In this document: positions 10,904 to 62,952 of the stretch, piece by piece
Numbering within the stretch: position 1 is the first letter of the stretch
Layout of the letters: each line of letters begins with the position of its first letter
From: Chondrosia reniformis
Taxonomy: Eukaryota; Porifera; Demospongiae; Chondrillida; Chondrillidae
Direction of reading: 5' to 3'
Length of the DNA stretch: 64,000 nt
NCBI GenBank assembly: GCA_947172415.1
Contig: OX359198.1
Span: 1,705,401-1,769,400 of the forward strand
Position numbers and translations under genes: made by a program
The notes under the pieces: model-generated
What the model saw: only the letters and a program-made list of their open reading frames with translations
What the model was told of the DNA's origin: nothing
The model's database searches: none

Positions 10904-12427
10904 ATGGATTATAGTCAGTTTCAAAATTATTGCAGGCAAAATGGTTTGGGCGAGCCTAAATATTCCAGGTTAGGATCATCGTACTTGGGGAAACAAGTTT
11001 CGATTACCATATTAGGTCGCACTTTCGTTGGTGAAGGAGTAACTTATGTTGATGCACAACGGGACGCAACTAGTAAGGTAATCAAATCTATCGAGTCAGA
11101 AGAAAAGAGATGTGAAAGTAAAGTATCACTCCTCAACGATCTCGTGTCGAAATTTCAAAGCGCAGAACCTGAATGCGGCATGAGCGTTAGATATGAATAT
11201 CATGGATTCAGTGGCACTCGACATAGGTTCACATGCATTGTGACAATTAACGGTGAGGTAAAATCATTTACTGGTGAAGGACTATCTAAACCTAACGCAA
11301 AGTTAATGTCAGCCAGCAAGGCTTTCGTTTGGCTTAAAGAATACCTGCAGTCCTCTGTTGAGGTCTTGTGTGATTTTCCATACTGCAAATATTGGTCTGA
11401 TGATATTGCTAAATGCAAGGCATTGATCAAGCAAGTCTGTCACAATCAATTAGAACCCTTTCATCGAGATGATGTAGTAGCAGCTATGATTATGTTTGAT
11501 TCATATTCAAAGACGAAGATTGTAGCTATAGGTAGTGGAAAGGGGTTCATGCATGGACGCTATGTTACCAAAGATGGCTCTGTTTTGCAGGACTGTCATG
11601 CTGAGGTATTGGCAAAGAGAGGTCTCCAAGCTTTTCTACTCCGTGAAATGAAAAAACAGAGAAGTTCCGTTGTACAAAAATATTCATCTGGAAGGTATGA
11701 CCTAAAGGATGGAGTATCTTTTCACTTGTATGTCAACAAAGTTCCTTGTGGAGACGCAATGGTTCCATCAGGAAGTAATGACTCATATCTAAGATGTAGG
11801 AAGGAAGGAAGTGATGCGGGACCAGGTTTACTTAAAGGCTATTCGTATTCTTATCAGGAACTGAAAGAAGGATATCCTGCCTACAAAATGTGTTGCAGTG
11901 ACAAGATTGCACTGTGGAATGTGGCTGGCTTGCAAGGAGCTCTGCTTAGCCATCTCTTGTGCAAACCCATTTACCTGAATACAATAGTCGTTGAAGGATT
12001 GGCTGAAGAGAACAACCTAAGAAGAGCATTTTTTGAAAGATTTAAGGGAATTTCTGGTTTGCCTCGTGACTATACCCTCAATGAGCCTAGCATTGTTGTT
12101 ATAAATGGCCATTCCAACGTTGGAGGTGGGCATGGTGGAGATAAGAAAGCATTCACTTGGGTTGCTGGAGCAGATGATCCTGGTGGTATGATTGATACTC
12201 AAACTGGGCGAGTGGAGGCAGGCAGTGCTGTGATTACCAAAGCCTCACTATTTCAGCAATGGAAGGCTGTAGCACCATTTAGCTGTCTACAGTATGGAAA
12301 TTATCAAAAATGCAAAAAAGGAGCCCTTGAATACCGCAAAGCCATTGGTGCATTCTGTGATCACTGTGAGAGGAGAAATATGGGGAAATGGATTGCTCGA
12401 ACAAGAGAAGTAGATCAGTTTAACTAA
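10904..12427 (+). CDS. ADAR-like dsRNA adenosine deaminase, copy 1
   Basis: 507 residues in one exon. ADARs bind double-stranded RNA and hydrolyse adenosine to inosine. Two dsRNA-binding-type regions come first (about 1-65 and 75-150; the first has the helix-strands-helix order with FxGEGxTYxDAxxxA), then a deaminase domain from about residue 165. The zinc and catalytic set is present: H232 and E234 in CHAEVLAKR, C282 in PCGDA, C331 in CCSDKIALWNV. LPRDYTLNEP resembles LPPLYTLNKP of animal ADARs, which argues for ADAR rather than the tRNA enzyme ADAT1. Compared with copies 2-5 the first 170 residues are divergent, while the deaminase part and 3' flank are nearly identical to copies 2-4. Lacking introns is unusual for the family and suggests descent from a retrocopy. 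Confidence 0.9.
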   Translation: MDYSQFQNYCRQNGLGEPKYSRLGSSYLGKQVSITILGRTFVGEGVTYVDAQRDATSKVIKSIESEEKRCESKVSLLNDLVSKFQSAEPECGMSVRYEYHGFSGTRHRFTCIVTINGEVKSFTGEGLSKPNAKLMSASKAFVWLKEYLQSSVEVLCDFPYCKYWSDDIAKCKALIKQVCHNQLEPFHRDDVVAAMIMFDSYSKTKIVAIGSGKGFMHGRYVTKDGSVLQDCHAEVLAKRGLQAFLLREMKKQRSSVVQKYSSGRYDLKDGVSFHLYVNKVPCGDAMVPSGSNDSYLRCRKEGSDAGPGLLKGYSYSYQELKEGYPAYKMCCSDKIALWNVAGLQGALLSHLLCKPIYLNTIVVEGLAEENNLRRAFFERFKGISGLPRDYTLNEPSIVVINGHSNVGGGHGGDKKAFTWVAGADDPGGMIDTQTGRVEAGSAVITKASLFQQWKAVAPFSCLQYGNYQKCKKGALEYRKAIGAFCDHCERRNMGKWIARTREVDQFN

Positions 12428-12890
12428 ACTAATTGGCTAGCAACAGTTACATAGGTGTTTAACCATTGGTCATATGTTTTTAGGCCTGACATTGTATTTA
12501 TAGGAAAGTATCTGTATATGTACATCTTACAGATTAGCATTAAGTTACTGTATAGTACACAACCAAATTATATTGTCAGTGGATTTACAAGATTATGTTA
12601 CCCAATGATGACATGTTGGTCAGTTACATTTATCATGAGAAATTAGACATGCAGGTTCAATAGTATTTCTTAAATGGTCTCTTTATGGGCATATTTAATA
12701 CCGCTTCAAACAAGATACAATTAATATCAAGAATCTACACTTATCCATCAAAATGTTCATCTGATATTGATCAGGATATACATAATATGTGAGGCTAAAT
12801 AGTAATCAGTGGTGGAGTTAACTTTATTCTATATAGCCAATACGTATACATATCATAGGAATACCCTTTAGTGTACTGTGTGTAGACAAT
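12428..12890. repeat. Intergenic duplicate unit (type 1), copies 1-2
   Basis: 3' flank beginning right after the stop codon, almost identical to 17228-17690 after copy 3 and, in its first 350 bases, to the flanks after copies 2 and 4. Short open frames in it are repeated with the flank and show no protein-like constraint. Confidence 0.85.
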
Positions 12891-13167
12891 GAGTCATGTT
12901 TCAGTATATATGGCCGGGGAAATCCTAAATGTTAATTTGTTTAAAAACAATCATGACTCACTATGTATTTGGCTCCAATTTCATTTAATTAAACTCTCTG
13001 AGTCATTCTCCTGGTAAGAAGTTCTATAAAATGCCTTCGCGACAGGACTCAGTGTATCTTTATAGCTATATATAGCCGTCCTTGCAGCTGAATACGTGCC
13101 AGCCTAACTGAATACTCGTAAATTATGGGAGAGGTTGAGTACTAGAGCCGCACGGAAACGTTTGAAG
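12891..13167 (+). promoter_or_regulatory. Promoter and leader of ADAR-like copy 2
   Basis: In order: GAGTCAT (12891), a kappaB-like GGGGAAATCC (12916-12925, one mismatch from the best consensus), AP-1-type TGACTCA (12954-12960), CCAAT (12975), TGAGTCA (12999-13005) and TATAAAA (13025-13031). The leader has a short upstream frame, ATG at 13125 to TAG at 13145 (MGEVEY), ending 22 bases before the main ATG. Confidence 0.6.
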
Positions 13168-14694
13168 ATGAACTCTGCCCAGTTTAAGGATTACTGTGAA
13201 CGAAATGGCTGGGGAAGGCCACGGTTTTCTAAATTAAGGTCTAACAACAAAAAGACGGTGTCAATTACAATTCGCAATTGCACCTTCTTTGGAGAAGGAG
13301 TATCCACTGTTGCTGCTAAGAGTGACGCGATTGCAAAAGCTCGCAAATCGATAGAGTCACTGACAGTAGTAGGTCCCAATAGAGGAGAAATTTCAGATTT
13401 GAACAACATGATGAAAGCGTTTCAAAGTGCAGAGCCCGGTTGTGGATTGCAAGTTGATTACCACTACGACAATCAGACTGAGTACACTTGTTACAGTAGC
13501 ATAAGGATTAACAACGAGGTTCAATCTTTCCTTGGCACAGAAATCCGAAAGAAAGATGCGAAGCAAACATCGGCAAGAAAGGCATTAATATGGTTTAGAA
13601 TTTATTTAAAATCCTCAGTTGATAGGCTGTGTGAATTTTCACTTCCAGTTATTTGGTCTGATGTGATTACTAAATGCAAAGAATTGACTAAACAAGTCTG
13701 CCACAATCAATTGGAGCCCCTTCACCACAAAGATGTCATTGCAGCTATAATTATGTGTTATTCCAACTCAAAAGCAAAGATTGTAGCTATAGGCAGTGGA
13801 AAGGGGTTCATGCATGGACAGTATGTTACCAAAGATGGCTCTGCTTTGCAGGACTGTCATGCTGAAGTATTGGCAAAGAGAGGTCTCCAAGCTTTCCTAC
13901 TCCGTGAAATGAAAAAACAGAGAAGTTCCGTTGTACAAAAATATTTATCTGGAAGGTATATATATGACCTAAAGGATGGAGTGTCTTTTCACTTGTATGT
14001 CAACAAAGTTCCTTGTGGAGATGCAATGGTTCCATCTGGAAGGAATGACTCATATCTAAGATGTAGGAAGGAAGGAAGTGATGCGGGACCAGGTTTACGT
14101 AAAGGCCATTCATATTCTTATCAGAAACTGAGAAAAGGATCTCCAGCCTACAAAATGTGTTGCAGTGACAAGATTGCACTGTGGAATGTGGCTGGCTTGC
14201 AAGGAGCTCTGCTTAGCCAACTCTTGTGCAAACCCATTTACCTGGAGACAATAGTTATTGAAGGATTGGCTGAAGAGAACAACCTAAGAAGAGCATTTTT
14301 TGAAAGATTTAAGGGAATTTCTGGTTTGCCTCGTGACTATACTCTCAATGAACCTAGCATTGTTGTTATAAATGGCCATTACAACGTTGGAGGTGGGCAT
14401 GGTGGAGATAAGAAAGCATTTACTTGGGTTGCTGGAGCAGATGATCCTGGTGGTATGATTGATACCCAAACTGGGCGAGTGGAGGCAGGCAGTGCTATGA
14501 TTTCCAAAGCCTCCCTATTTCAGCAGTGGAAGGCTGTAGCACCATTTGGCTGTCTACAGTATGGAAATTATCAAAAATGCAAAAAAGGAGCCCTTGAATA
14601 CCGCAAAGCCATTGGTGCATTCTGTGATCACTGTGAGAGGAGAAATATGGGGAAATGGATTGCTCGAACAAGAGAAGTAGATCAGTTTAACTAA
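13168..14694 (+). CDS. ADAR-like dsRNA adenosine deaminase, copy 2
   Basis: 508 residues, one exon. The frame is open from 13135 but has no ATG until 13168; that Met (MNSAQFKDYC) aligns with the start of copy 1 (MDYSQFQNYC), so I take it as the start. Two dsRNA-binding-type regions, the second containing CGLQVDYHYDNQTEYTC, then the deaminase with H231 and E233 in CHAEVLAKR, PCGDA and CCSDK all intact. A two-codon Ile-Tyr expansion (GRYIYDLKDG) within a TATATA tract is unique to this copy. Its 5' half matches copies 3-5, its 3' end matches copies 1, 3 and 4. Copy 4 is its closest relative, 4.79 kb downstream. Confidence 0.9.
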   Translation: MNSAQFKDYCERNGWGRPRFSKLRSNNKKTVSITIRNCTFFGEGVSTVAAKSDAIAKARKSIESLTVVGPNRGEISDLNNMMKAFQSAEPGCGLQVDYHYDNQTEYTCYSSIRINNEVQSFLGTEIRKKDAKQTSARKALIWFRIYLKSSVDRLCEFSLPVIWSDVITKCKELTKQVCHNQLEPLHHKDVIAAIIMCYSNSKAKIVAIGSGKGFMHGQYVTKDGSALQDCHAEVLAKRGLQAFLLREMKKQRSSVVQKYLSGRYIYDLKDGVSFHLYVNKVPCGDAMVPSGRNDSYLRCRKEGSDAGPGLRKGHSYSYQKLRKGSPAYKMCCSDKIALWNVAGLQGALLSQLLCKPIYLETIVIEGLAEENNLRRAFFERFKGISGLPRDYTLNEPSIVVINGHYNVGGGHGGDKKAFTWVAGADDPGGMIDTQTGRVEAGSAMISKASLFQQWKAVAPFGCLQYGNYQKCKKGALEYRKAIGAFCDHCERRNMGKWIARTREVDQFN

Positions 14695-15430
14695 ACTAAT
14701 TGGCTAGCAACAGTTACATAGGTGTTTAACCATTGGTCATATGTTTTTAGACCTGATATTGTATTTATAGGAAAGTATCTGTATATGTACATCTTACAGA
14801 TTAGCATTAAGTTACTGTATAGTACACAACCAAATTATATTGTCAGTGGATTTACAAGACTATGTTACCCAATGATGACATGATGGTCAGTTACATTTAT
14901 CATGAGAAATTAGACATGCAGGTTCACAAATATTTCTTAAATGGTCTCTTTACGGGCATATTTAATACCACTTCAAACAAGATACAATTAATATCAAGGA
15001 TCTACACTTATCCATCAAAATGTTCATCTGATAGTGATCAGGATATACATAATATGTATAGGATTCACAGAAGATCAAGAAAAAGAAAAAGACAAAGACT
15101 CCCAGGATCACTGATGAAGGGTGGAATTCCCAGAAACAGCTATCTGGCCCAGTGGAGAAGAAAATGAAAGAAGGGAAAAGAAGGAAGAAAAGACTCCTGT
15201 ATCTTCATCCAAAGCTCTCTTCAGGTTTAGTTCCCCTATAGGCTCTTTTACAGAATAGGCATATAGCATGTAGGAAACCGGTATCTTTCATGTAGTAACA
15301 CATGTCGTAACCATTTCATGCAGAGTATATACATGAGGCTAAATAATAATCAGTGGTGGAGTTAACTTTATTCTATATAGCCGATACATATCGTAGGAAT
15401 ACCCTTTAGTGTACTGTTATGTACCACAAG
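14695..15430. repeat. Intergenic duplicate unit (type 2), copies 2-3
   Basis: Nearly identical to 19476-20190 between copies 4 and 5. Differs from the type 1 spacer by an additional segment of about 300 bases beginning near 15055 (AGGATTCACAGAAGATCAAG). A 101-codon open frame (14862-15167) exists in both type 2 spacers but overlaps sequence that is non-coding after copies 1 and 3, so I do not call it. Confidence 0.85.
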
Positions 15431-15706
15431 ATGTACAATTAGTCATGCTCAGTATGACCGGGGAAATCCCAAATATTAAATTGTTTAAAAACAATCATGA
15501 CTCACTATGTATTTGGCTCCAATTTCATTTAATTAAACTCTCTGAGTCATTCTCCTGGTAAGAAGTTCTATAAAATGCCTTCGCGACAGGACTCAGTGTA
15601 TCTCTATAGCCGTCCTTGCAGCTGAATACGTGCCAGCCTATAGCTGAATACTCGTAAATAATTATGGAAGATGTTGAGTACTAGAGCCGCACGGAAACGT
15701 TTGAAG
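15431..15706 (+). promoter_or_regulatory. Promoter and leader of ADAR-like copy 3
   Basis: Perfect kappaB consensus GGGAAATCCC (15461-15470), TGACTCA (15498-15504), TGAGTCA (15543-15549) and TATAAAA (15569-15575). The upstream frame MEDVEY runs 15664-15684. An in-frame ATG at 15671 overlaps it and would add 12 residues to the protein. Confidence 0.6.
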
Positions 15707-17227
15707 ATGAACTCTGCCCAGTTTAAAGATTACTGTGAACGAAATGGCTGGGGAAGGCCACAATTTTCTAAATTAAGGTCTAACAACAAAAAGACGGTGT
15801 CAATTACAATTCGCAATTGCACCTTCTTTGGAGAAGGAGTATCCACTGTTGCTGCTAAGGGTGACGCGATTGCAAAGGCTCACAAATCGATAGAGTCACT
15901 GACAGTAGTAGGTCCCAATAGAGGAGAAATTTCAGACTTGAATATCATGATGCAAGCGTTTCAAAGTGCAGAGCCCGGTTGTGGAATGCAAGTTGATTAC
16001 CACTACGACAATCAGACTGAGTACACTTGTTACAGTAGCATAAGGATTAACAACGAGGTTCAATCTTTCCTTGGCACAGAAATCCGAAAGAAAGATGCGA
16101 AGCAAACAGCGGCAAGAAAGGCATTAATATGGTTTAGAATTTATTTAAAATCTTCAGTTGATAGGCTGTGTGAATTTTCACTTCCAGTTAATTGGTCTGA
16201 TGTGGGTACCAAATGCAAAGAATTGACTAAACAAGTCTGCCACAATCAATTGGAGCCCCTACACCACAAAGATGTCATTGCAGCTATAATTATGTTTTAT
16301 TCCAACTCAAAAGCAAAGATTGTATCTATAGGCAGTGGAAAGGGATTCATGCATGGACAGTATGTTACCAAAGATGGCTCTACTTTGCAGGACTGTCATG
16401 CTGAAGTATTGGCAAAGAGAGGTCTCCAAGCTTTCCTACTCCGTGAAATGAAAAAACAGAGGAGTGCTGTTGTACAAAAATGTCCATCTGGAAAGTATGA
16501 CCTTAAGGATGGAGTGTCTTTTCACTTGTATGTCAACAAAGTTCCTTGTGGAGATGCAATGGTTCCATCGGGAAGTAATGCCTCTTACCTAAGATATAGA
16601 AAAGAAAAAAGTGATGCGGGAGCAGGTTTACGTGAAGGCCATTCATATTCTTATCAGGAACTGAGAGAAGGATATCCTGCCTACAAAATGTGTTGCAGTG
16701 ACAAGATTGCACTGTGGAATGTGGCTGGCTTGCAAGGAGCTCTGCTTAGCCATCTCTTGTGCAAACCCATTTACCTGGAGACAATAGTTGTTGAAGGATT
16801 GGCTGAAGAGAACAACCTAAGAAGAGCATTTTTTGAAAGATTTAAGGGAATTTCTGGTTTGCCTCGTGGCTATACCCTCAATGAACCTAGCATTGTTGTT
16901 ATAAATGGCCATTACAACGTTGGAGGTGAGCATGGTGGAGATAAGAAAGCATTCACTTGGATTGCTGGAGCAGATGATCCTGGTGGTATGATTGATACCC
17001 AAACTGGGCGAGTGGAGGCAGGCAGTGCTGTGATTACCAAAGCCTCCCTATTTCAGCAATGGAAGGCTGTAGCACCATTTAGCTGTCTACAGTATGGGAA
17101 TTATCAAAAATGCAAAAAAGGAGCCCTTGAATACCGCAAAGCCATTGGTGCATTCTGTGATCACTGTGAGAGGAGAAATATGGGGAAATGGATTGCTCGA
17201 ACAAGAGAAGTAGATCAGTTTAACTAA
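15707..17227 (+). CDS. ADAR-like dsRNA adenosine deaminase, copy 3
   Basis: 506 residues from the Met shared by the whole array; an alternative in-frame ATG at 15671 would give 518. Single exon. Two N-terminal dsRNA-binding-type regions, deaminase with CHAEVLAKR, PCGDA and CCSDK intact. Distinguishing changes: KYDLKDG in place of RYDLKDG, RYRKEKSDAGAG shared with copy 5 only, and GGEHGGDKK shared with copy 4. This mosaic of shared changes suggests gene conversion among copies. The C-terminal tail carries CxxC (FCDHCERR) as in copies 1, 2 and 4. Confidence 0.9.
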   Translation: MNSAQFKDYCERNGWGRPQFSKLRSNNKKTVSITIRNCTFFGEGVSTVAAKGDAIAKAHKSIESLTVVGPNRGEISDLNIMMQAFQSAEPGCGMQVDYHYDNQTEYTCYSSIRINNEVQSFLGTEIRKKDAKQTAARKALIWFRIYLKSSVDRLCEFSLPVNWSDVGTKCKELTKQVCHNQLEPLHHKDVIAAIIMFYSNSKAKIVSIGSGKGFMHGQYVTKDGSTLQDCHAEVLAKRGLQAFLLREMKKQRSAVVQKCPSGKYDLKDGVSFHLYVNKVPCGDAMVPSGSNASYLRYRKEKSDAGAGLREGHSYSYQELREGYPAYKMCCSDKIALWNVAGLQGALLSHLLCKPIYLETIVVEGLAEENNLRRAFFERFKGISGLPRGYTLNEPSIVVINGHYNVGGEHGGDKKAFTWIAGADDPGGMIDTQTGRVEAGSAVITKASLFQQWKAVAPFSCLQYGNYQKCKKGALEYRKAIGAFCDHCERRNMGKWIARTREVDQFN

Positions 17228-17690
17228 ACTAATTGGCTAGCAACAGTTACATAGGTGTTTAACCATTGGTCATATGTTTTTAGGCCTGACATTGTATTTA
17301 TAGGAAAGTATCTGTATATGTACATCTTACAGATTAGCATTAAGTTACTGTATAGTACACAACCAAATTATATTGTCAGTGGATTTACAAGATTATGTTA
17401 CCCAATGATGACATGTTGGTCAGTTACATTTATCATGAGAAATTAGACATGCGGGTTCAATAGTATTTCTCTTTACGGGCATATTTAATACCGCTTCAAA
17501 CAAGATACAATTAATATCAAGAATCTACACTTATCCATCAAAATGTTCATCTGATATTGATCAGGATATACATAATATGTGAGGCTAAATAGTAATCAGT
17601 GGTGGAGTTAACTTTATTCTATATAGCCAATACGTATACATATCGTAGGAATACCCTTTAGTGTACTGTTGTGTAGACCATGAGTCATGT
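17228..17690. repeat. Intergenic duplicate unit (type 1), copies 3-4
   Basis: Near-identical to the spacer after copy 1 (12428-12890), with one small deletion near 17470. No gene. Confidence 0.85.
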
Positions 17691-17954
17691 TTCAGTATAT
17701 ATGGCCGGGGAAATCCTAAATGTTAATTTGTTTAAAAACAATCATGACTCACTATGTATTTGGCTCCAATTTCATTTAATTAAACTCTCTGAGTCATTCT
17801 CCTGGTAAGAAGTTCTATAAAATGCCTTCGCGACAGGACTCAGTGTATCTCTATGGCTATAGCCGTCCTTGCAGCTGAATACGTGCCAGCCTAACTGAAT
17901 ACTCGTAAATTATGGGAGAGGTTGAGTACTAGAGCCGCACGGAAACGTTTGAAG
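17691..17954 (+). promoter_or_regulatory. Promoter and leader of ADAR-like copy 4
   Basis: GGGGAAATCC (17707-17716), TGACTCA (17745-17751), CCAAT (about 17765), TGAGTCA (17790-17796) and TATAAAA (17816-17822). Upstream frame MGEVEY at 17912-17932, as in copy 2. Confidence 0.6.
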
Positions 17955-19475
17955 ATGAACTCTGCCCAGTTTAAAGAATACTGTGAACGAAATGGCTGGG
18001 GAAGGCCACGGTTTTCTAAATTAAGGTCTAACAACAAAAAGACGGTGTCAATTACAATTCGCAATTGCACCTTCTTTGGAGAAGGAGTATCCACTGTTGC
18101 TGCTAAGAGTGACGCGATTGCAAAAGCTCGCAAATCGATAGAGTCACTGACAGTAGTAGGTCCCAATAGAGGAGAAATTTCAGATTTGAACAACATGATG
18201 CAAGCGTTTCAAAGTGCAGAGCCCGGTTGTGGATTGCAAGTTGATTACCACTACGACAATCAGACTGAGTACACTTGTTACAGTAGCATAAGGATTAACA
18301 ACGAGGTTCAATCTTTCCTTGGCACAGAAATCCGAAAGAAAGATGCGAAGCAAACATCGGCAAGAAAGGCATTAATATGGTTTAGAATTTATTTAAAATC
18401 CTCAGTTGATAGGCTGTGTGAATTTTCACTTCCAGTTATTTGGTCTGATGTGATTACTAAATGCAAAGAATTGACTAAACAAGTCTGCCACAATCAATTG
18501 GAGCCCCTTCACCACAAAGATGTCATTGCAGCTATAATTATGTGTTATTCCAACTCAAAAGCAAAGATTGTAGCTATAGGTAGTGGAAAGGGGTTCATGC
18601 ATGGACAGTATGTTACCAAAGATGGCTCTGTTTTGCAGGACTGTCATGCTGAAGTATTGGCAAAGAGAGGTCTCCAAGCTTTCCTACTCCGTGAAATGAA
18701 AAAACAGAGAAGTTCCGTTGTACAAAAATATTCATCTGGAAGGTATGACCTAAAGGATGGAGTATCTTTTCACTTGTATGTCAACAAAGTTCCTTGTGGA
18801 GACGCAATGGTTCCATCTGGAAGGAATGACTCATATCTAAGATGTAGGAAGGAAGGAAGTGATGCGGGACCAGGTTTACGTAAAGGCTATTCGTATTCTT
18901 ATCAGAAACTGAGAAAAGGATCTCCAGCCTACAAAATGTGTTGCAGTGACAAGATTGCACTGTGGAATGTGGCTGGCTTGCAAGGAGCTCTGCTTAGCCA
19001 ACTCTTGTGCAAACCCATTTACCTGGAGACAATAGTTGTTGAAGGATTGGCTGAAGAGAACAACCTAAGAAGAGCATTTTTTGAAAGATTTAAGGGAATT
19101 TCTGGTTTGCCTCGTGGCTATACCCTAAATGAACCTAGAATTGTTGTTATGAATGACCATTACAACGTTGGAGGTGAGCATGGTGGAGATAAGAAAGCAT
19201 TTACTTGGGTTGCTGGAGCAGATGATCCTGGTGGTATGATTGATACCCAAACTGGGCGAGTGGAAGCAGGCAGTGCTGTGATTACCAAAGCCTCACTATT
19301 TCAGCAGTGGAAGGCTATAGCACCATTTAGCTGTCTACAGTATGGAAATTATCAAAAATGCAAAAAAGGAGCCCTTGAATACCGCAAAGCAATTGGTGCA
19401 TTCTGTGATCACTGTGAGAGGAGAAATATGGGGAAATGGATTGCTCGAACAAGAGAAGTAGATCAGTTTAACTAA
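17955..19475 (+). CDS. ADAR-like dsRNA adenosine deaminase, copy 4
   Basis: 506 residues, one exon, start chosen as for copy 2 because no ATG lies upstream in frame. Same domain order and intact HAE, PCGDA and CCSDK motifs. Close to copy 2 in its first half (CGLQVDY, IWSDVITKC, IIMCYSNSK) but lacking the Ile-Tyr insertion. Private changes NEPRIVVMNDHYN alter a stretch that is SIVVINGH in the others, near the region preceding the FTWVAGADD strand. Whether these affect activity cannot be judged here. Confidence 0.9.
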   Translation: MNSAQFKEYCERNGWGRPRFSKLRSNNKKTVSITIRNCTFFGEGVSTVAAKSDAIAKARKSIESLTVVGPNRGEISDLNNMMQAFQSAEPGCGLQVDYHYDNQTEYTCYSSIRINNEVQSFLGTEIRKKDAKQTSARKALIWFRIYLKSSVDRLCEFSLPVIWSDVITKCKELTKQVCHNQLEPLHHKDVIAAIIMCYSNSKAKIVAIGSGKGFMHGQYVTKDGSVLQDCHAEVLAKRGLQAFLLREMKKQRSSVVQKYSSGRYDLKDGVSFHLYVNKVPCGDAMVPSGRNDSYLRCRKEGSDAGPGLRKGYSYSYQKLRKGSPAYKMCCSDKIALWNVAGLQGALLSQLLCKPIYLETIVVEGLAEENNLRRAFFERFKGISGLPRGYTLNEPRIVVMNDHYNVGGEHGGDKKAFTWVAGADDPGGMIDTQTGRVEAGSAVITKASLFQQWKAIAPFSCLQYGNYQKCKKGALEYRKAIGAFCDHCERRNMGKWIARTREVDQFN

Positions 19476-20190
19476 GCTAATTGGCTAGCAACAGTTACAT
19501 AGGTGTTTAACCATTGGTCATATGTTTTTAGGCCTGACATTGTATTTATATAGGAAACTATCTGTTTGTACATCTTACAGATTAGCATTAAGTTACTGTA
19601 TAGTACACAACCAAATTATATTGTCAGTGGATTTACAAGACTATGTTACCCAATGATGACATGATGGTCAGTTACATTTATCATGAGAAATTAGACATGC
19701 AGGTTCACAAATATTTCTTAAATGGTCTCTTTACGGGCATATTTAATACCACTTCAAACAAGATGCAATTAATATCAAGGATCTACACTTATCCATCAAA
19801 ATGTTCATCTGATAGTGATCAGGATATACATAATATGTATAGGATTCACAGAAAATCAAGAAAAAGAAAAAGACAAAGACTCCCAGGATCACTGATGAAG
19901 GGTGGAATTCCCAGAAACAGCTATCTGGCCCAGTGGAGAAGAAGATGAAAGAAGGGAAAAGAAGGAAGAAAAGACTCCTGTATCTTCATCCAAAGCTCTC
20001 TTCAGGTTTAGTTCCCCTATAGGCTCTTTTACAGAATAGGCATATAGCATGTAGGAAAATGGTATCTTTCATGTAGTAACGCAGAGTATATACATGAGGT
20101 TAAATAGTAATCAGTGGTGGAGTTAACTTTATTCTATATGGCCAATACATATCGTAGGAATACCCTTTAGTGTACTGTTATGTACCACAA
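19476..20190. repeat. Intergenic duplicate unit (type 2), copies 4-5
   Basis: Copy of 14695-15430 with a few small indels. Contains the same spurious 101-codon frame (19643-19948). No gene. Confidence 0.85.
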
Positions 20191-20464
20191 GATGTACAAT
20201 GAGTCATGCTCAGTATGACCGGGGAAATCCCAAATGTTAAGTTGTTTAAAAACAATCATGACTCACTATGTATTTGGTTACTATTTCATTTAATTAAACT
20301 CTCTGAGTCATTCTCCTGGTAAGAAGTTCTATAAAATGCCTTCGCGACAGGACTCAGTGTATCTCTATAGCCGTCCTGGCAGCTGAAAACGTGCCAGCCT
20401 ATAGCTGAATACTCGTAAATTATGGAAGATGTTGAGTATTAGAGCCGCACGGAAACGTTTGAAG
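20191..20464 (+). promoter_or_regulatory. Promoter and leader of ADAR-like copy 5
   Basis: GGGAAATCCC (20222-20231), TGACTCA (20259-20265), TGAGTCA (20304-20310) and TATAAAA (20330-20336). Upstream frame MEDVEY 20422-20442; an overlapping in-frame ATG lies at 20429, as in copy 3. Confidence 0.6.
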
Positions 20465-21982
20465 ATGAACTCTGCCCAGTTTAAAGATTACTGTGAACGA
20501 AATGGCTGGGGAAGGCCACAGTTTTCTAAATTAAGCTCTAACAACAAAAAGACAGTATCAATTACAATTCGCAATTGCACCTTCTTTGGAGAAGGAGTAT
20601 CCACTGTTGCTGCTAAGGGTGACGCGATTGCAAAAGCTCACAAATCGATAGAGTCACTGACAGTAGTAGGTCCCAATAGAGGAGAAATTTCAGATTTGAA
20701 CAACATGATGCAAGCGTTTCAAAGTGCAGAGCCCGGTTGTGGAATGCAAGTTGATTACCACTACGACAATCAGACTGAGTACACTTGTTACAGTAGCATA
20801 AGGAATAACAACGAGGTTCAATCTTTCCTTGGCACAGAAATCCGAAAGAAAGATGCGAAACAAACATCGGCAAGAAAGGCATTAATATGGTTTAGAATTT
20901 ATTTAAAATTCTCAGTTGATAGGCTGTGTGAATTTTCACTTCCAGTTAATTGGTCTGATGTGATTACTAAATGCAAAGAATTGACTAAACAAGTCTGCCA
21001 CAATCAATTGGAGCCCCTTCACCACAAAGATGTCATTGCAGCTATAATTATGTTTTATTCCAACTCAAAAGCAAAGATTGTATCTATAGGCAGTGGAAAG
21101 GGATTCATGCATGGACGCTATGTTACCAAAGATGGCTCTGTTTTGCAGGACTGTCATGCTGAAGTATTGGCAAAGAGAGGTCTCCAAGTTTTCCTACTCC
21201 GTGAAATGAAAAAACAGAGGAGTGCTGTTGTACAAAAATATTCATCTGGAAGGTATGATCTAAAGGATGGAGTGTCTTTTCACTTGTATGTCAACAAAGT
21301 TCCTTGTGGAGATGCAATGGTTCCATCAGGAAGGAATGACTCATATCTAAGATATAGAAAAGAAAAAAGTGATGCAGGAGCAGGTTTACGTAAAGGCTAT
21401 TCGTATTCTTATCAGGAACTGAAAGAAGGATATCCTGCCTACAAAATGTGTTGCAGTGACAAGATTGCACTGTGGAATGTGGCTGGCTTGCAAGGAGCTC
21501 TGCTTAGCCACCTCTTGTGCAAACCCATTTACCTGGAGACAATAGTTGTTGAAGGATTGGCTAAAGAGAACAACCTAAGAAGAGCATTTTTTGAAAGATT
21601 TAAGGGAATTTCTGGTTTGCCTCGTGACTATACTCTCAATGAACCTAGCATTGTTGTTATAAATGGCCATTACAACGTTGGAGGTGGGCATGGTGGAGAT
21701 AAGAAAGCATTCACTTGGGTTGCTGGAGCAGATGATCCTGGTGGTATGATTGATACCCAAACTGGGCGAGTGAAGGCAGGCAGTGCTGTGATTACTAAAG
21801 CCTCCCTATTTCAGCAGTGGAAGGCTGTAGGTCAATTAAGCCTGGGTGATGGAAGCTATCAGAGTTGCAAAGAAAGAGCCCTTGAATACTGCAGGGCTAT
21901 TGATGTATTTCGTAATTACTGTAAGGCTAGAATTTTGGGGACTTGGATTACCCGAGGGAGTGCAGTTGACCAATTCATTTAA
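20465..21982 (+). CDS. ADAR-like dsRNA adenosine deaminase, copy 5 (divergent C-terminus)
   Basis: 505 residues, single exon, with CHAEVLAKR, PCGDA and CCSDK intact. The first 90% is of the same type as copies 2-4, but from about 21828 the nucleotide and protein sequences change abruptly: GQLSLGDGSYQSCKERALEY replaces the APFSCLQYGNYQKCKKGALEY end of the others, the CxxC of the tail is lost (FRNYCKARI), and the 3' flank is unrelated to the other spacers. The tail is still recognisably homologous and ends VDQFI rather than VDQFN, so it is an old allele of the tail, not a frameshift. It marks the right end of the duplicated array. Confidence 0.9.
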   Translation: MNSAQFKDYCERNGWGRPQFSKLSSNNKKTVSITIRNCTFFGEGVSTVAAKGDAIAKAHKSIESLTVVGPNRGEISDLNNMMQAFQSAEPGCGMQVDYHYDNQTEYTCYSSIRNNNEVQSFLGTEIRKKDAKQTSARKALIWFRIYLKFSVDRLCEFSLPVNWSDVITKCKELTKQVCHNQLEPLHHKDVIAAIIMFYSNSKAKIVSIGSGKGFMHGRYVTKDGSVLQDCHAEVLAKRGLQVFLLREMKKQRSAVVQKYSSGRYDLKDGVSFHLYVNKVPCGDAMVPSGRNDSYLRYRKEKSDAGAGLRKGYSYSYQELKEGYPAYKMCCSDKIALWNVAGLQGALLSHLLCKPIYLETIVVEGLAKENNLRRAFFERFKGISGLPRDYTLNEPSIVVINGHYNVGGGHGGDKKAFTWVAGADDPGGMIDTQTGRVKAGSAVITKASLFQQWKAVGQLSLGDGSYQSCKERALEYCRAIDVFRNYCKARILGTWITRGSAVDQFI

Positions 21983-23279: not shown

Positions 23280-24326
23280 ATGGCGCATCACGTTCAGTCA
23301 AGTGGATTCTCCTTTTCTGTTGGAAAAGAATGTTCTAATAAGTTACTTCCAACAACTTCAAGCAAGGAGGCAATGAATTCGAAGCTTGGCTACTCTCCTG
23401 AATCGATATCTGATAATGATGGCTGTATGGTAGAATACATGTTCAGTGAAATGAACTCTTTCGTGAAGGCCGTTCACGCCGCCTTTGCTTCGCACTATCC
23501 ACTGATCTTGAGTCCAGATATGGTTTGGTTGTGTATTATGCAAGGATTCTCCGCCCACGTCAACAGAAATGCGGAGAAATTGAGGAAAAAGTTCGTGTCT
23601 CACGAAGGGAAAGTTGAAATTGGAGTGAGAAGAGATGACTTTGTGAAAGGAGAGCAAAATCCTTGGCAAGAGGCATTTTCAGAATTCTCTGAGAAGATTC
23701 GCGACCACATTGGAAGTGAGACTCACTCGATAATAGTCCCAAACTTCTCTACAACTGGACCCATTGAAAAAGCTGTCAGTGAAATTGTTCTGATGGAAAC
23801 AGTGCAAAATTATTTTCGTTTGGACTTTTATACATTATGTGGCATTCCAGAGTTCACATTAGAGGGAACAGCAGAAGACTGGCAGCAGCTTCGGGACAAG
23901 GCAGCCAAACTGTCCCAATTTGACTTGGAGTGGTGGATACCACATCTACTTGTGGTTCTAGACCAGATAGTGGCTGCCAGGTTGGGTAAGGTGGACAAGG
24001 CATTCTGGTCATCAATTTACAAGATATACGATGCTTCAGGTGGTCCATACATAAGTGGATGGATTCTTAAACTTTTTCCTTACCTAGATGGAAAAAGAAA
24101 TGCTTGGCTTGAAGAAGAACCTGGTCGCTTCAGTGGTCCTGTGACCTCTTCCTTCCCCAGTGGACTGTCACGTGCTCCATTCACTTGGCATTACTTGGTC
24201 ACTGACTTCAAGATGGACTTTATCGGAGGTTTTGTTGGAGTTAAACAAGATCCTCAGTCCCTCGCTCTCAGACCTGAGATGGGTTGGGCTGTAGTGGAAC
24301 AGTCCAAATCTGATTCGGGTGCTTAA
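23280..24326 (+). CDS. DUF4419 family protein
   Basis: 348 residues in one exon. The frame is open from 23241 but the first ATG is at 23280 (AAAAATGGCG, a good initiation context). The protein contains the DUF4419 signature stretches: MFSEMNSFVKAVHAAFASHY, LSPDMVWLCIMQGFSAHVN, then DDFVKGEQNPWQEAFSEFSE, later LRDKAAKL and WWIPHLLVVLDQIV, and GPYISGWILKLFPYL. The family is common in fungi, amoebae and invertebrates and has no established biochemical function. No signal peptide or membrane helix. Like the ADAR-like genes beside it the gene lacks introns. Confidence 0.88.
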   Translation: MAHHVQSSGFSFSVGKECSNKLLPTTSSKEAMNSKLGYSPESISDNDGCMVEYMFSEMNSFVKAVHAAFASHYPLILSPDMVWLCIMQGFSAHVNRNAEKLRKKFVSHEGKVEIGVRRDDFVKGEQNPWQEAFSEFSEKIRDHIGSETHSIIVPNFSTTGPIEKAVSEIVLMETVQNYFRLDFYTLCGIPEFTLEGTAEDWQQLRDKAAKLSQFDLEWWIPHLLVVLDQIVAARLGKVDKAFWSSIYKIYDASGGPYISGWILKLFPYLDGKRNAWLEEEPGRFSGPVTSSFPSGLSRAPFTWHYLVTDFKMDFIGGFVGVKQDPQSLALRPEMGWAVVEQSKSDSGA

Positions 24327-33771: not shown

Positions 33772-35841
33772 ATGACTGAGGTTAAGAAGATTAGGGAGGA
33801 TATTGCTGAGGTTGAGAAGAAAATGGGCGTGGTTGAGGAGAAAATGGCTGAGGTTGACAAGAAAATGGGTGTGGTTGAGGAGAAAAATGATAAGCTTCTT
33901 GCTGACATTATCAAGACGAAGGATTCTGAACTGTAAGATCTGTGTGTGTGTTTGCCATTCCATGGTTGCCTAGAGGGTCATCGGCATGCACCCCAATTAA
34001 GGGAATACACATGTAGCTATTTGTTAATTGCCAATCTGTGGTTACTGTTGAAACAACTTGACTCATTTCAGTCCATGCAACTATCTGTGTGTGTGTGTGC
34101 AGAGATAATAATAGTCATTCTAGGCTTTGTTATATCACCCTAAGAGTAGAGTAGTGTCTTTGAAGTACTCATCATTATGTATGATTTTTATGAAATACAG
34201 GAAGACAATATTCTGTGAAAGAATGAAATCACTTGTGGAAGAAAGGAAATCACTCATGGAAGAAAGGAAATTACTTGTGCAAAAAGATAAATCACTTAAC
34301 CAGTATCTTACAAGTCTTCGGGAAAGACTGTTAAGCCAATCAAAGAAAGACTCTCTTTTGCCTCCTCCAAAGAAGGCAAGATACACTGAACCATTATTTG
34401 AAGGTATATTACCATTGCACATACTGAAGCTAAATGATATACTGTTGCTATCACAGAACCTTAGGTGTTATACACATACTTCACTCCTTTTGTAGAGCCT
34501 AAATCACTCCATCACTCTCCATCCAATACTACAAGTGAAGAGGTTAAATCACGGAGTACAACAGGTGATGTGTATGACCATTGGTTTGCCTTATGCATGT
34601 ACGAATTGAAAAACTATCTGGCTAACAATCCAATACAACTCAGAAACGGGGACCAATCTACCCTCAATTTGCCCTTTAAGGGGAAAACCGTGGCGATACA
34701 GGTTTTTCATTTAAAGGAAATTATAATACGTTGGAAGCAAATGGAAAAATTTCTTTATGAAGAATGTTCCACAGCTGCATTAGCGGTTGGACTAGAGCGC
34801 TTTCTATTTCCAACTAATGCTGGCATACTTCCTGATGGTGTTTGTTGTCATCAAATGCCAATTTCTGATGGAAGCCGTGTAAAGTCTAACTTCAGTGTTT
34901 TTCCATATCCAGTGGGAAGGAGTTTCAGGTACGGAAGGAGGATGTTGGAACAAAATACATTTGTAGCAGTTTCCAACTTCAAAAAATCCGATTTTGACCA
35001 ATCAAAAAATGAATCATTTGCATACAGTTTGGCACAACAGCAGGGCAATACCACTTTAGTTAGACTTTTGTTTCCAATGACCAAGCACCGTGTCATGTTA
35101 CAGATCTACGTGCCTATATCCGGATCTGTGCTTTTGATCAATATATTTGATGATGATACCTCAGAAGCCAACCTTGCACAATTCTTCTGCATGTTGTATG
35201 TTGGAGTAAAATATTTACTTCATTCTCCAATCAAATCAACCATGGCCCCACATCCTATAGATGATGATGAATTGAAATTGAATTATTACGCAAAGCATAC
35301 CAATCCACGTGTGCTAATAAGTGAAGACAATTTTTTTTATAAGCTATATGACACTGTCAGGAATAAGCCTCAATTGGAAGTTGCAAAATTAGTCCTTCGT
35401 GATGCAACAGTTGAGCAGTTGAGTGATGACGGACGTTACTGTTATCTAAAGTATAAATATCAAGAGGATGATGAAAATCCAGATTTGAATTCCTTCCAGA
35501 AAATTTTAAATCAGCTTCATGAGATTCATGAAGAGGGGTATGTCCACTCTGACATAAGGAGGCAGAATATTGTGCTTGGCAAGCATTCTGCATGCATAAT
35601 AGACTTTGATCTTGCCGAAAAAGAAGGTGTCAACTATCCGTTAACCTACAATAGCTCTCCAAAAATAAAAGAACGGCACCCAAAGGCAGAAGCGGGCCTA
35701 CCGAGGGAGAAAATTCATGATGTTCATGCCCTTGACGTGATTATGAGAATCTATAATTTTTCTGGGATCATGGAACAGTACAGATCTGGTAAATCACTCT
35801 TGGAAATAGCTACAAATATAACTGAAGACATGGAAATGTAA
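33772..35841 (+). CDS. Coiled-coil, nuclease-like and kinase-like protein, copy 1
   Basis: Exons 33772-33932, 34201-34403 and 34496-35841; GT-AG junctions and consistent phases give 569 residues. A CAG at 33740 with a preceding GTGAGT donor near 33430 suggests an untranslated first exon. Residues 1-110 are heptad-rich (repeated AEVEKKMGVVEEK, then MKSLVEERKSLMEERK): a coiled coil. About 165-380 is a globular region containing SDGSRVKSNFSVFPYP and FVAVSNFKKSDF, compatible with a restriction-endonuclease-like fold but with Asn where copy 2 has Asp. About 400-560 resembles a protein kinase: FFYKLYD N-lobe strand, HSDIRRQN (H472, D474) as catalytic loop and IIDFD (D491) in the place of DFG. Architecture recalls Crinkler-type eukaryotic proteins; that is inference. 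The exact function is unknown. Confidence 0.75.
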
Positions 35842-60363: not shown

Positions 60364-62952
60364 ATGACTGAGGTTAAGAAGATTAGGGAGGATATTGCTG
60401 AGGTTGAGAAGATCAAGAAGGATATTGCTGAGGTTAAGAATGAAATGCCTGTGGTTAAGAATGAAATGGCTAAGGTTGACAAGAAAATGGGTGTGGTTGA
60501 GGAGAAAAATGATAAGCTTCCTGCTGACATTATCAAGAAGGATTCTGAACTGTAAGATCTGTGTGTGTGTGTTTGCCATTCCGTGGTTACCTAGAGGGTC
60601 ATTGGCATGCACCCCAATTAAGGGAATACACATGTAGCTATTTGTTAATTGCCAATCTGTGGTCACTGTTAAAACGACTTGACTCATTTCAGTCCATGCA
60701 ACTATCTGTGTGTGTGCAGAGATAATAATAGTCATTCTAGGCTTTGTTATATCACCCCAAGAGTAGAGTAGTGTCTTCGAAGTACTCACCGTTATGTATG
60801 ATTTTTATGAAATACAGGAAGACATCCTGTGAAAGAATGACATCACTTGTGGAAGGAATGAAATCACTCATGGAAGAGAAAGACTCTCCTATGTCTCCAA
60901 AGACTACAAGATACACTGAACCATTACATGAAGGTATATTATTACCATTGCATGCGCTAAAACTAAATGATATACAGTGCAGTCCACGTAATTCGAATCC
61001 ATTTTTGACGGAATTTCGCCTATTTTGAATAGAACTCCGGTTCCCTGTATAGTCCCAGTACATCAATTTCGTTGGGAATTTTCGTTTATTTTGGAGAGAA
61101 TACTGAAGTATGTTAACACACAATAAGTGAGCCTCAAAGTTATTTAGGTGGCAATTGCACCTTTAACGGTTAAGAAAATTAGCTAAATCATCATTCATCA
61201 TTCTCAGTGTGGTGTTATTCTCTAGCTATGCAACGTTCACGGTACCAATCACTTACCCTCAAACGAAAACTAGAGATTATCGATCTCATTGACAACACTC
61301 CATCTGAAAAGAAGAAAAAGGACATTGCTACTGAAATAGGAATTCCACCGAGTACCCTCAGCACTATTCTGAAAAACAGGGATACTCTACAGGCTAGCTA
61401 TACATTTGGAAGCAGCAAAAAAGGAGTAACCTTACACGTCCTGATGTAGATGTAGATATTTCACTTGTATTTTTTACTGTTTAGACATCACTTTGCTATT
61501 TTGTACATAATCCTGATAATTCTAAATTCCTGTTACTTCAAGTTTTTCCTGATTCCCTAGAGATTCGAATTAAGTGGACTGCACTGTAGTTATGCTATGA
61601 CAGAACCTTAGGTGTTATACACATACTTCACTCCTTTTGTAGAGCCTACATTTCTCCTTCGCTCTCCATCCAGAACTACAAGTGAAGAGGTTGAATTACG
61701 GAGTACAACAGGTGATGTGTATGACCATTGGTTTGCCTTACGCATGTACGAATTGAAAAACTATCTGGCTAACAATCCAATACAACTCAGAAACGGGGAC
61801 CACGCTACCCTGAATTTGCCCTTTAAGGGGGAAACCGAGGTGATGCAGGTTTTTCATTTAAAGGAAATTATAACACGTTGGAAGCAAATGGAAACATTTT
61901 CTTATGAAGAATGTTCCACAGCTACATTAGCGGTTGGACTAGAGCGCTTTCTATTTCCAACTGATGCTGGCATACCTCCTGATGGTGTTTGTTGTCATCA
62001 AATGCCAATTTCTGATGGAAGCCGTGTAAAGTCTGACTTCAGTGTTTTTCCCTATCCAGTGGGAAATCGTATTTTTGAACAAAATGCATTTGTAGCAGTT
62101 TCAGACTTCAAAAAATCCGATTTTCGCCAATCGAAAATTGAATCATTTGCATACAGTTTGGCACAACAGAAGGGCAATACCGCTTTAGTTAGACTTTTGT
62201 TTCCAATGACCAAGCACCGTGTCATGTTACAGATCTACGTGCCTATATCCGGATCTGTGCTTTTGATCAATATATTTGATGGTGATACCTCTGAAGCCAA
62301 CCTTGCACAATTCTTCTGCATGTTGTTCGTTGGAGTAAAATATTTACTTCATTCTCCGATCAAATCAACCATGGCCCCACATCCTATAGATGATAATAAA
62401 TTGAAATTGAATTATTACGCAAAGGATACCAATCCACGTGTGCTAATAAGTGAAGACAATTTTATTTATAAGCTATATGACACTGTCAGGAATAAGCCTC
62501 AATTGGAAGTTGCAAAATTAGTCCTTTGCGATGCAACAGTTGAGCAGTTGAGTGATGACAGACGTTACTGTTATCTAAAGTATAAATATCGAGAGGATGA
62601 TGCAAATCCAGATTTGAATTCCTTCCAGAAAATTTTAAATCAGCTTCATGAGATTCATGAAAAGGAGTATGTCCACTCTGACATAAGGAGGCAGAATATT
62701 GTGCTTGGCAAGCATTCTGCATGCATAATAGACTTTGATCTTGCCGAAAAAGAAGGTGTCAACTATCCGTTAACCTACAATAGCTCTCCAAAAATAAAAG
62801 AATGGCACCCAAGGGCAGAAGCGGGCCTACCAAGGGAGAAAATTCATGATGTTCATGCCCTTGACGTGATTATGAGAAGCTATAATTTTTCTGGGATCAT
62901 GGAACAGTACAGATCTGGTAAATCACTCTTGGAAATAGCTACAACTGTATAA
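60364..62952 (+). CDS. Coiled-coil, nuclease-like and kinase-like protein, copy 2
   Basis: Exons 60364-60551, 60818-60933 and 61643-62952, with the same splice sites as copy 1. The coiled coil is longer in exon 1 (an extra VEKIKKDIAEVKNEMPVV stretch) and shorter in exon 2, where the LLVQKDKSLNQYL part is missing. The nuclease-like region has VSDFKK (Asp retained) and lacks the GRSFRYGRRM insertion of copy 1. Kinase-like motifs HSDIRRQN and IIDFD are intact. A one-base insertion near the 3' end (ACAACTGTATAA) shifts the frame and replaces the NITEDMEM tail by TV, a loss of a few residues. Intron 2 carries a pogo/Tigger-like insertion. Confidence 0.75.
60975..61586 (+). mobile_element. Pogo/Tigger-type element in intron 2 of kinase-like copy 2
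   Basis: 612 bp bounded by CAGTGCAGTCCACGTAATTCGAAT and its inverted near-match ATTCGAATTAAGTGGACTGCACTG (each given here up to 24 bases is split as CAGTGCAGTCC + ATTCGAAT), with TA on both sides (60973-60974, 61587-61588). Kinase-like copy 1 has the uninterrupted site GATATACTGTTGC at 34436, so the insertion happened after the duplication. Only the start of a transposase remains. Confidence 0.92.
61228..61449 (+). pseudogene. Pogo/Tigger transposase N-terminal fragment
   Basis: Reads MQRSRYQSLTLKRKLEIIDL, then KKKDIATEIGIPPSTLSTIL and KNRDTL before running into unrelated sequence and a stop: the CENP-B-type N-terminal helix-turn-helix. The second DNA-binding domain and the DDE catalytic domain are absent. 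Confidence 0.85.

Follow-up and report, generated by a model that had tools for sequence, protein, structure and literature searches.

Five tandem ADAR-like deaminase genes with an altered base-flipping loop in the sponge Chondrosia reniformis

A stretch of 64,000 nucleotides of the kidney sponge Chondrosia reniformis (the window; positions 1,705,401-1,769,400 of contig C10, OX359198.1, in a genome of 117,379,552 bases and 15 contigs) carries five genes in tandem, each coding an ADAR-like deaminase in a single unbroken frame. The array lies very likely on chromosome 10. The five genes probably belong to an ADAR-like branch of their own. Their products retain the zinc/glutamate core of the deaminase, have lost the base-flipping glutamate, and likely act in adenosine-to-inosine (A-to-I) editing of structured or double-stranded RNA (dsRNA) with an altered choice of targets. 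The genes, in positions of the window, are:

10904..12427, + strand: copy 1, ADAR-like deaminase of 507 aa, deaminase domain at residues 159-507
13168..14694, + strand: copy 2, 508 aa, predicted architecture as copy 1, front 44% identical in protein to the front of copy 1
15671..17227, + strand: copy 3, 518 aa
17955..19475, + strand: copy 4, 506 aa, coding DNA 1.6% different from copy 2
20429..21982, + strand: copy 5, 517 aa, with a divergent C-terminal tail of its own

Every copy has one terminal stop and neither internal stop nor frameshift. The A_deamin profile is matched across nearly its whole length in all five (E 3.6e-55 to 1.3e-57), which confirms the tandem array of unbroken ADAR-like frames described in the initial annotation. 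The closest solved structures by sequence are ADAR2, the Adar-like editase, adr-2 and ADAR1. The two N-terminal regions of dsRNA-binding type that had also been proposed correspond to two dsRNA-binding domain (dsRBD) folds per protein in structure predictions (copies 1 and 2), the predicted folds of copy 1 spanning residues ~1-65 and 71-148. The top structural matches of the second dsRBD are protein-binding dsRBDs (Loquacious, TRBP dsRBD3), with RNA-binding ones only ~1-2 Z units away. An alignment read by eye against consensus motifs of dsRNA-binding residues suggests that the second dsRBD carries KKDAK in copies 2-5, and SKPNAK with a His-bearing loop in copy 1, and that the first dsRBD is without both dsRNA-binding motifs. 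The domain search found no z-alpha match in the five copies, and a search of the 64-kb window with the copy-1 protein found no sixth copy.

The catalytic elements are exemplified by copy 1:

11597..11605, + strand: H-A-E motif, His232 and catalytic Glu234
11744..11752, + strand: P-C-G motif, zinc ligand Cys282
11798..11827, + strand: base-flipping loop, residues 299-308, RKEGSDAGPG, with Pro307 at the Glu488 position in the alignment with ADAR2
11894..11905, + strand: C-S-D-K motif, zinc ligand Cys331 and Lys334 of the inositol hexakisphosphate (IP6) relay

The initial annotation considered the active sites intact and the catalytic set complete. This holds for the zinc ligands and the catalytic glutamate (H394, E396, C451 and C516 of ADAR2), which are kept in 5/5 copies and in all 40 rows of the clade defined below; K519 and D392 of the relay are conserved as well, and Arg replaces K483. 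It does not hold for the flipping loop. Glu488, which flips the base and according to PMC11334849 is strictly conserved in ADARs between two glycines, is lost from the five copies, its place being taken by Pro (GPG) in copies 1, 2 and 4 and by Ala (GAG) in copies 3 and 5, within a loop that is three residues longer than that of ADAR2 (human ADARB1, PDB 1zy7 and 8e0f; 28-29% identity to the array proteins). The insert between the zinc cysteines, given as ~65-70 residues in ADARs (PMC11334849), has 48 residues in each copy; eight ADAR1 and ADAR2 rows have 53-73 and seven ADAT1 rows 95-218. Among the inositol-phosphate residues listed as strictly conserved in the same source (R400, R401, K519, K662 and K690), R401, K519 and K662 are identical in the array, R400 is changed to K and K690 to R. 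The ADAR1-like frame of the sponge on contig C7, compared together with human ADAR1 (9b83), differs from the array in having z-alpha, a GGEGT loop and a 73-residue insert.

Proteins of this composition would be re-tuned RNA adenosine deaminases built on a conserved zinc core. The two predicted dsRBD folds would recruit RNA, and zinc, the catalytic glutamate and the partly kept inositol-phosphate pocket would deaminate adenosine, while two features may shift which adenosines are reached, the longer Glu-less flipping loop and the small size of the insert that separates the zinc cysteines. As a conjecture, the expansion is most plausibly explained by a defence role directed at dsRNA of viruses or transposons.

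The array has relatives that define its branch. In a tree of 74 deaminase rows it falls inside a 40-row clade (support 100/100) apart from ADAR1, ADAR2 and ADAT1; note that the protein of contig C12 and several further rows are long branches of uncertain position. The clade is kept (18/18 rows, 100/100) in a second tree from which most long rows were dropped. Its attachment is less constrained, as joining it to ADAR2, to ADAR1, to both or to ADAT1 is not rejected in the second tree by the approximately unbiased (AU) test (p-AU 0.177, 0.227, 0.105 and 0.381, respectively). A profile search in which 7996 candidates were scored yielded 726 proteins; among the best 120, 45 lie above a drop in score from 282 to 255 bits at which ordinary ADARs start, and 36 of these 45 were placed in either tree, directly or through an identical frame. 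The window itself accounts for two of the 45. The remaining 43 are exclusively of environmental or read-assembly origin (ena, jgi, lgn), with no named NCBI, UniRef or nr entry among them. The environmental contigs carrying clade relatives are presumably of sponge origin. Frames in raw contigs were called without introns, so this list would miss relatives that bear introns. Several pairs of relatives are found on contigs of equal listed size, two such contigs being only 10.8 and 13.7 kb long, which suggests recurrent tandem clusters. Pattern matches in viral contigs (141) and in prokaryote species genomes (22) gave no relative confirmed by tblastn.

Those environmental relatives (P0006-P0042, P0121-P0125) that were placed in the trees share the clade of the array (100/100), the short insert and mostly K483R. 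They differ from it at the flipping residue, as taken from the printed loop strings of the alignment: the clade has 32 rows beyond the Chondrosia group, with Glu in 28, Gly in two and Gln in two. The Chondrosia group itself has eight members (the five copies, a pair at 1.287-1.290 Mb of C10 and protein P0003), all without Glu488, and the tree requires at least four changes between Glu and non-Glu at this position.

Some observations on related proteins stand apart from the array. Natural Gly-Gln-Gly loops, found in P0038-P0042, P0077 and P0102, equal the laboratory change E488Q, and the flipping residue of P0038 and P0040 is Q. E488Q is the hyperactive variant used by protein engineers. P0003, from a contig of 1,552,588 bases, is 87% identical to the C10 gene at 1.287 Mb and has ~88 residues that the latter lacks; it is possibly an allele or a length variant. 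Fourteen of the 17 rows of P0056-P0072 are environmental A_deamin proteins with H-A-V for H-A-E, in which the catalytic glutamate is gone and PCG and CSDK are kept. P0043, P0045, P0046, P0048, P0062 and similar proteins form a separate A_deamin group (5/5 rows, 100/100) outside ADAR1, ADAR2 and ADAT1. The loops of this group read GAGSK and GEGAV or GEGAI, and for four of its members the listed contig size is 536,725.

The array genes are under purifying selection, moderate for young pairs. Nei-Gojobori counts give a proportion of nonsynonymous differences (pN) below that of synonymous ones (pS) in all 30 pair-by-region comparisons, which are not independent of one another, with p < 0.05 in 25; among these, the highest p is 0.045, for the whole genes of copies 2 and 4, and the lowest 2.9e-19, for those of copies 1 and 5. 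Coding indels between copies are all multiples of three (3, 6 or 36 bases), while those of intergenic DNA include 1, 2, 4, 5, 10, 11, 20, 257 and 277 bases. Selection on the copies, put forward in the initial annotation, is therefore upheld.

Several features weigh against a set of working editors. The array has Lys for T375, Gly for K376 and Met for R455, all at positions where a mutational scan of ADAR2 showed substitutions to be mostly harmful, and the inositol-phosphate ligands R522 and K672 are replaced by L and I. Whole-gene ratios of nonsynonymous to synonymous rates (dN/dS) of 0.31-0.53 speak for purifying selection that is not strong, and the five non-significant comparisons are those of the fronts of copies 2-5 among themselves, which have few changes (p 0.062 to 0.72). 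AATAAA is absent after all five stops up to the next gene, the nearest ATTAAA being 552-781 bases off, which makes the 3' ends of the genes hard to annotate.

The strongest rival, which is possible though doubtful, is that the proteins have no deaminase activity and bind dsRNA as decoys or regulators in competition with active editors, as several residues rarely tolerant of change in ADAR2 are altered. Besides the loss of Glu488, the decoy would account for T375K, K376G, R455M, R522L and K672I, changes at flipped-base contact positions being mostly detrimental in the ADAR2 scan, as reported in PMC8809894. ADAR3 and ADAD, which share the dsRBD plus deaminase architecture with the array, provide the precedents: ADAR3 is described as deaminase-deficient (PMC9418441) and the ADAD deaminase domain as catalytically inactivated (PMC9989829). 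The array differs from both in keeping zinc ligands and the catalytic glutamate (Glu396) in its five copies, as does the whole clade. Furthermore, K376G and K483R are also common to clade rows that keep GEG, so that they seem to characterize the branch rather than to reflect decay; changes shared with Gly-Glu-Gly relatives speak for a different working geometry. Active deaminases with altered target choice remain the preferred reading.

It is unlikely that the substrate is a structured RNA of another kind (for instance a tRNA, or the precursor of a small RNA) rather than long dsRNA. Two points favour this reading: the insert that holds the 5'-binding loop of ADAR2 is short in the array (48 residues), and the union of the clade with ADAT1 is not rejected (p-AU 0.381). 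ADAT1 also has the A_deamin domain with HAE, PCG and CSDK. Against the reading, ADAT1 is a single deaminase domain (as described in PMC4323055) whose insert takes up 95-218 residues and which has no GEG loop, while two predicted dsRBD folds precede the deaminase in the array. The sponge genome has, in addition, its own ADAT1 (contig C5, 499 aa).

The initial annotation attributed the lack of introns to a spliced ADAR message that was retroposed and then amplified. This reading gains from the unbroken frames standing in a genome that averages 7.20 exons per transcript (PMC12181767), and a single, very old retroposition predating the array would be compatible with the data. The rest of the family argues otherwise. 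A whole-genome A_deamin search gave 19 matches: 11 full-length frames, four partial ones on C2 and four short or broken ones on C7. The full-length frames are the five-copy array, the C10 pair, an ADAR1-like gene on C7, an ADAR2-like gene on C2, a gene with three dsRBDs on C12 and ADAT1 on C5; besides ADAT1 there are ten intact ADAR-like frames, seven of them in their own branch. The C2 (621 aa), C12 (652 aa) and C5 frames are unbroken too, as is a 939-aa frame of the C7 gene spanning z-alpha, dsRBD and deaminase. A separate 235-aa frame upstream of the latter also has z-alpha, which indicates that this gene likely has one more upstream exon. Save for that exon, the intact A_deamin genes are single frames, with no intron-rich parent among them, and unbroken coding is a trait of the family in this genome and no mark of a retrocopy.

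The structure of the array leads to the same point, as seen in the following segments:

11391..17194, + strand: long DNA match to 16191-21949 (5810 columns, 95.5%), including two intergenic regions
12428..13167: intergenic region 1, 99.2% identical to intergenic region 3 (17228-17954), 6 differences in 726 aligned bases
10904..11530, + strand: divergent front of copy 1, up to ~residue 210, sharing 48-76% of its nucleotides with the other copies when compared by blocks of 25 codons
21833..21982, + strand: tail of copy 5, diverged from those of copies 1-4 (identity 65-74% in nucleotides, 51-53% in protein)

The repeated units contain intergenic and upstream DNA, which the retroposition of a message would not carry; this agrees with unequal crossing-over together with gene conversion, and disagrees with repeated retroposition. 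An amplified retrocopy is consequently quite improbable. Intergenic regions 2 and 4 have 31 differences in 953 aligned bases and the other intergenic pairs are 5-7% apart, with additional indels of 257 or 277 bases, so that the most recent duplication probably involved a unit of two genes. Beyond a breakpoint at ~11531 (~residue 210), the identity profile of copy 1 to copies 2-4 rises to 85-100%, its front being saturated in synonymous divergence. Copy 5 resembles copies 2-4 up to ~residue 469, and the tails of copies 1 and 5 have 52-53% protein identity. The front of one parent at one end, the tail of another at the other end and hybrids in between point to unequal crossing-over between two old tandem paralogs, by which the front of one paralog likely survived in copy 1 and the tail of the other in copy 5, with copies 2-4 as hybrids. 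Site patterns conflict (3+5 at 11 sites, 2+4 at 9, 1+3 at 5, 1+5 and 1+4 at 4 each, 2+3 at 3, 3+4 at 2 and 2+5 at 1) and the copies share the core between the breakpoints, which suggests gene conversion too. Conversion would homogenize the catalytic core and leave the RNA-binding fronts different.

That the copies are recent neutral duplicates on their way to functionless pseudogenes is very improbable: copies 2 and 4 differ by only 1.6% with selection just visible, the fronts of copies 2-5 give five non-significant comparisons and AATAAA is missing, but no copy has a stop or frameshift, and pN is below pS throughout, also when the front of copy 1 is set against that of copy 2, where divergence is saturated (p 4.7e-19).

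Other loci were met in the course of the analysis. Downstream of the array, a DUF4419 protein is encoded in a single frame at 23280-24326 of the window (+ strand, E 3.3e-78). Two single-frame paralogs at 34465-35841 and 61612-62952 (+ strand; 458 and 446 codons, 88% identical) have a weak C-terminal protein-kinase match (E ~2e-5) under the Pfam cut-off. On C2 (428500-466000), the intact 621-aa ADAR2-like frame stands in a row with the four partial ADAR2-like copies (at 431, 437, 448 and 454 kb), and between these copies lie two TRIM-NHL-like frames of 739 and 740 aa with B-box, filamin and NHL repeats. The four short A_deamin matches on C7 (2182766-2289204) have internal stops and are spread across 106 kb; three are equal in listed length and stops, as expected from a dispersed fragment.

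Among previous surveys, one ADAR1 and one ADAR2 are recorded in Amphimedon and one ADAR1 in Oscarella (PMC4323055), and 48 genes in 14 lophotrochozoan genomes and one transcriptome (PMC6651903). No comparable ADAR expansion, in sponges or elsewhere, was found in the literature at the level of titles and beginnings of abstracts, subscription papers being mostly outside reach. Grice and Degnan (2015; PMC4323055) concluded that the ADAR family is not marked by dramatic expansion and diversification. The present sponge genome has ten intact ADAR-like frames besides ADAT1, seven of which fall in their own branch. A broader and tentative interpretation is that, in this sponge branch, the otherwise strictly conserved flipping glutamate became free to vary (Pro, Ala, Asn, Ser, His, Gly, Gln), so that RNA editors were re-tuned in nature, and that the kidney-sponge array is a recombining defence locus in which RNA-binding fronts are swapped onto one homogenized core. 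The branch offers natural versions of the residue that is engineered in hyperactive editors (E488Q), together with a reduced RNA-contact insert, and could reveal by what means a deaminase gains access to its base when Glu is absent. If the enzymes are active, they would be compact natural editors comparable with the engineered ones; if they are antiviral, early-animal defence against dsRNA would become testable.

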